23,148 nt of DNA from a virus. The notes beneath the pieces are model-generated. The model had not been told where the DNA came from, made no database searches, and saw only the letters and a program-made list of their open reading frames with translations. Made by a program: the position numbers and the translations under genes. How positions within the stretch are numbered: position 1 is the first letter of the stretch; every line of letters starts with the position of its first letter. Location of the stretch: the IMG/VR virus record IMGVR_UViG_3300044996_000495, positions 1-23,148 of that record, one strand, 5' to 3'. Positions 19,603 through 19,724 of the stretch are shown piece by piece.

Positions 19603-19724
19603 GCCCGGCTGGCCGGTGGAGGGTCGTCCCCTGTCGGGGGGCTGCGAAGGTGTAGGTGGCGACGCCGCTGCCAGTCGCAAGGCCACGCCCCGTCCTACCT
19701 TCACGTCACCCTCCACCGCCGGGC
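19603..19724 (-). ncRNA. Candidate structured RNA A (three-way junction)
   Basis: This non-coding stretch folds by complementarity alone. The outer arms GCCCGG/CCGGGC (19724-19719 and 19608-19603) and a perfect 11-bp stem, CGGTGGAGGGT/ACCCTCCACCG (19718-19708 and 19624-19614), are separated by a 5-base bulge. Inside are an interrupted long stem (GAAG-GTAG-x-GTGG-x-CGAC with GTCG-CCAC-CTAC-x-CTTC) and a small CCCC/GGGG hairpin, making a three-way junction. I assign the minus strand from the operon direction. No open frame with a ribosome site covers it. It could be a riboswitch-like leader of the 19589 gene, a processed small RNA, or a ribozyme; I cannot match it to a known family. Confidence 0.55.

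Follow-up and report, generated by a model that had tools for sequence, protein, structure and literature searches.

The largest clearly non-coding gap in a minus-strand operon of the virus IMGVR_UViG_3300044996_000495 (IMG/VR) is predicted by computation to be filled by a two-domain structured RNA block, in which a domain A and a domain B are each closed on themselves and are separated by a short hairpin. The analysis covered positions 1-23,148 of the record (23,148 nt; the window). An earlier note on this DNA had described domain A as a structured RNA unit; its structured and non-coding nature was upheld, but A does not stand alone and forms one half of the block, so that the frame of the note was too narrow. 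We tentatively read the gap as a cis-acting, two-domain structured element within the polycistronic mRNA of the phage, the interpretation to which we give the most weight, if rather less than an even chance; its action in cis on the mRNA is what we infer.

Genomic setting

Domain A is flanked on both sides by genes on the minus strand. Upstream lies a gene for a DUF488-family protein of 146 aa (19858-20298, minus strand), and downstream a gene for a 68-aa protein with one hydrophobic segment (19383-19589, minus strand), which is probably membrane-bound and is followed by further genes at 19009-19386 and 18464-19012. The gap between them (19590-19857) comprises 268 nt and is exceptional, because the other adjacent genes in this part either overlap or abut; the second-largest gap of the operon is that of the tRNA-Leu (16889-17015). 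Positions 7264-7557 were considered as a larger gap and rejected, since they are covered by an ORF (7230-7622). The description of the region as the main gap of the operon was thus correct.

Read along the minus strand, the gap presents domain B (19858-19743), the hairpin (19740-19725), domain A (19724-19603) and the string AAC-AGGAGG-CACG-ATG. The strong Shine-Dalgarno sequence AGGAGG (19594-19599, minus strand) begins 4 nt past the foot of A, i.e. the domain does adjoin the ribosome site of the membrane-protein gene, as had been noticed.

With codon usage trained on this virus, all six frames scored negative over the gap and over A and B, at scores of +0.14 to +0.34 for the flanking genes; the view that the region is not protein-coding therefore holds, as none of the six frames of the gap carries phage codon usage. 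No match to a promoter or terminator consensus was found inside the gap, and the sole promoter-like site seen (TTGACA-N17-TACTCT) lies near position 21590, about 1.7 kb upstream of the block. Nor does the gap contain an intrinsic terminator (GC hairpin plus U run), A being followed by AACAGGAGG, which agrees with the earlier remark that A is not of terminator shape. Phage genomes are compact, and 268 nt of non-coding, strongly folded sequence are therefore likely to be under selection.

Other features were observed elsewhere in the window. An RNA ligase gene (15643-16644, minus strand; Pfam RNA_ligase, 65 bits) lies about 0.3 kb from the lone tRNA-Leu(CAA), and the two might counter host nucleases by tRNA repair. 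Repeats of iteron type, with GGCCAGGTGGGGC cores (21884-21950 and 23118-23148), flank a 1.1-kb stretch of little coding signal, possibly an origin or a repeat-rich terminus, and a near-perfect, very strong 19-bp GC hairpin (23076-23114) is terminator-like, without a clear U run.

Structure of domain A

Domain A (19603-19724, minus strand) is closed by 17 pairs around a three-way junction. On the RNA, the 5' side of the closing stem is at 19708-19724 and the 3' side at 19603-19624. The core of the stem consists of perfect 11-nt complementary arms (19614-19624 and 19708-19718), extended across a 5-nt bulge by GCCCGGC/GCCGGGC (19603-19609 with 19718-19724), and the minimum free energy (MFE) structure contains these as 7 + 10 pairs. 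Inside it, a long stem with interruptions and a CCCC/GGGG hairpin complete the junction. The closing pairs, the junction and both inner elements had been proposed from the letters of the sequence, and all of them were recovered in the fold.

The proposal that such nesting is unlikely by chance was substantiated by comparison with 300 dinucleotide-preserving shuffles: the minus strand of A has an MFE of -73.0 kcal/mol, against -57.5 +/- 3.9 for the shuffled sequences (z -3.98), and none of the 300 folded as well. With short flanks included, the z-score was -3.86 (0 of 200 shuffles as good). A has the lowest MFE of all 3838 124-nt segments of the 23 kb on either strand, and its z-score of -5.1 in a sliding scan was the third lowest of 1152, ranks which are rough because just 20 shuffles were used per segment. 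In a context of 660 nt the closing pairs have probabilities of 0.82-1.0, bar one alternative end pair.

The plus strand of A is nearly as stable (MFE -70.8, z -3.17), because the palindromes are nested, and energy alone therefore cannot pick the strand. This near-equality, together with a z-score of -2.95 under DNA energy parameters, would suit palindromes that work as DNA, i.e. as a replication, packaging or recombination site or as the remains of a mobile element. We regard this as improbable: the unit is not repeated in the window or in the longer record of the same virus, no recombinase is among the proteins named here, the position is exactly before a Shine-Dalgarno sequence, and the z-score is more favourable on the gene strand. 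For A, gene direction and the place before the ribosome site favour the minus strand, beyond energy alone.

Separating hairpin and domain B

The separating hairpin (UCCCGC-UGCG-GCGGGA, six pairs; 19725-19740, minus strand) has pair probabilities of about 1.0 at five of six tested positions in the 660-nt context. Domain B (19743-19858, minus strand) shares no sequence similarity with A. It has a 12-bp closing stem (UUGCCGGUCGGC/GCCGACCGGCAA) and a branched interior, with z-scores of -2.2 on the minus and -3.0 on the plus strand. The inner folds differ between its two strands and at least two compete, and the predicted interior is less certain. The closing pairs of A and B taken together have, nearly all, probabilities of 0.75-1.0 in the 660-nt context.

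A GC content of 71-75% makes it conceivable that the block is a GC-rich, functionless sequence which folds by chance. Perfect stems of at least 11 bp enclosing a loop of 40-200 nt are expected about 1.4 times in the whole 23 kb and were seen five times, so a single one is not rare. One such stem within the gap occurred in 1.25% of shuffles; not one of 20,000 gap shuffles had two separate ones, the number observed. Along with the shuffles of A itself, this renders chance very improbable, and the least likely of the explanations considered.

Predicted function

When A is folded, AGGAGG is mostly unpaired (0.9-1.0; folding window 19540-19726), and in some longer contexts (19440-19870) it is partly paired elsewhere; how far A keeps the site open thus hinges on the folding window. 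Since A folds autonomously and can leave AGGAGG open, its probable role is to insulate this ribosome site and to mark a processing or stability boundary in the mRNA.

For a cis-acting element, the following course is conceivable. Once the polymerase has passed the DUF488 gene, domain B would fold first, then the hairpin and then A. The stable block would uncouple the membrane-protein gene and the genes at 19009-19386 and 18464-19012 from upstream translation, and would prevent upstream sequence from pairing with AGGAGG. The long GC stems might halt exonucleases, or might be cut by an RNase III-type enzyme (the cutting by analogy only), and the downstream mRNA would thereby gain its own half-life and translation level.

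The variable accessibility of AGGAGG would also suit a regulatory leader, in which A, on binding a small molecule or a protein, would switch access to the ribosome site (riboswitch or autogenous operator); the location of A directly before the site and the competing inner folds of B point in the same direction. The fold of A is very stable, though, AGGAGG lies outside it with no clear anti-Shine-Dalgarno partner, and no riboswitch matched the gap (best, THF, with 14 bits vs a threshold of 36), so we consider such a switch unlikely.

The main rival to the cis-acting element is that A and B are discrete non-coding RNA bodies, which are released from the transcript of the operon at the stems that close them and act in trans during infection. 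rRNA precursors, which are cut at processing stalks, offer a parallel. Each domain is closed by a long stem of its own and stays closed in context, the two together occupy the gap, and the same operon has a tRNA and an RNA ligase. Against this stand the lack of an Rfam match and of a copy elsewhere in the window or in the longer record, as well as the contact of A with the following gene's ribosome site, a placement more in keeping with a leader. We consider excision possible, at a clearly lower probability than the cis-acting element. A ligand or protein switch, antitermination of the put type (see below) and a DNA site are all less likely than either a cis-acting element or a processed RNA.

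Search for relatives

The gap is present in a second IMG/VR record of 79.6 kb (UViG_3300044490_000250), whose identity is 99.97% across the 10.7 kb compared and complete across the gap (271/271); a further IMG/VR record of 19 kb matches the terminase and portal part. Searches of IMG/VR with the membrane protein, the DUF488 protein, the protein of 18464-19012, the terminase and the portal returned nothing but near-identical records of this virus. Neither DNA nor terminase searches of INPHARED, nor two scans (terminase; DUF488) of a prokaryote genome collection, found a relative, and blastn against phages (INPHARED) and plasmids (PLSDB) gave short pieces at chance level only. The relatives of the DNA polymerase share only about 20-31% identity. 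The virus is without close kin in the collections searched.

The RNA-ligase profile retrieved 58 other phage loci from IMG/VR (about 37-56% identity), none of which shares the genes next to A or matches a covariance model of A, and the model found no match in 50 whole records. It was built from one sequence, and the phage loci or records scanned with it number more than 100; a model of this kind finds close copies only, and its null result is therefore weak negative evidence. A degenerate pattern derived from the stem of A retrieved the same virus only, no second copy of the unit was found elsewhere in the window or in the 79.6-kb record, and no divergent homologue of the gap was found among IMG/VR, INPHARED, PLSDB and the prokaryote genomes searched. 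The missing divergent relatives represent an absence of data and not counter-evidence to the structure.

Some features of the 79.6-kb record were noted in passing. A tRNA-Ser(UGA)-like sequence (24435-24516, minus strand; L009:4635-4716), whose D arm is weak and whose T loop has 8 nt, was missed by default ARAGORN and by Rfam and was found only at a lowered threshold; it is a candidate for a degenerate tRNA or a tRNA mimic. Another region, of about 546 nt (L008:3090-3710, z about -5), is non-coding and highly structured, and comprises GC hairpins in tandem, one long hairpin and a promoter-like site (TTGACA-N17-TACACT). One frame (L008:7980-10769, plus strand) encodes a DNA polymerase A that carries a uracil-DNA glycosylase domain at its N-terminus.

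Comparison with known RNA classes

Rfam 15 matched the whole window only with tRNA-Leu at 16919-16995, and a search of the gap alone (E<=10) gave nothing credible (best 15.8 bits vs a threshold of 53), consistent with the earlier failure to match A to a known RNA class. Integron attC was rejected for A by eye, as GTTRRRY cores are missing. An HDV-like ribozyme was entertained because a GGGCAACA string sits at the foot of A, and was rejected on account of an unsuitable stem order and the lack of any ribozyme match in Rfam.

A structured RNA of unknown type is a fair description of the block, and A and B are one well-founded candidate from a single virus. That they represent a new class of structured phage RNA, the first member to be seen, with two tandem multi-branched domains that are excised or cis-acting, in a lineage lacking close relatives in the collections searched, appears doubtful at present; conservation, if shown, would add such a class as well as a means of setting gene dosage within long operons.

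The packaging RNA of phi29-type phages is a stem-closed three-way junction, which A resembles in form and in size; pRNA phages differ in their small genomes and in their arrangement, and A has no Rfam match and lies away from the packaging genes here.

T7 R-sites and similar elements are intergenic stems for RNase III and mRNA processing in polycistronic phage mRNAs. The block resembles them in its long GC stems, located between co-transcribed phage genes and beside a ribosome site, and by this analogy only the predicted double-stranded stem is a candidate RNase III processing site. T7-type sites are single interrupted hairpins, whereas two multi-branched domains with a separating hairpin are predicted here.

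GOLLD and ROOL are structured phage RNAs of unknown function, often close to tRNAs, and are much larger and more elaborate than the block, many GOLLD exceeding 800 nt (PMC12286853). Their Rfam models (E<=1) matched neither the window nor the remaining 60 kb searched in the long record, and the block differs from them also in that the tRNA is 2.6 kb off.

With the putL/putR RNA of phage HK022 the block shares the character of a structured cis element in a phage transcript (PMC9378689). By acting on RNA polymerase during its own synthesis, a put-like block could promote read-through of the remaining long operon: its nascent phage transcript would be structured, a long series of genes on one strand follows it, and put acts without any phage protein (PMC9378689). 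The put RNA is about 70 nt long, consists of two stem-loops and lies near a promoter (PMC9378689), whereas the block is about 260 nt long, branched, and situated within an operon about 1.7 kb downstream of the sole promoter-like site seen; given these differences in size, topology and place, we judge put-like action to be quite unlikely. Set beside these systems, the block is ordinary in kind, i.e. a structured intergenic phage RNA, and is unusual in its size and in its two-domain layout.
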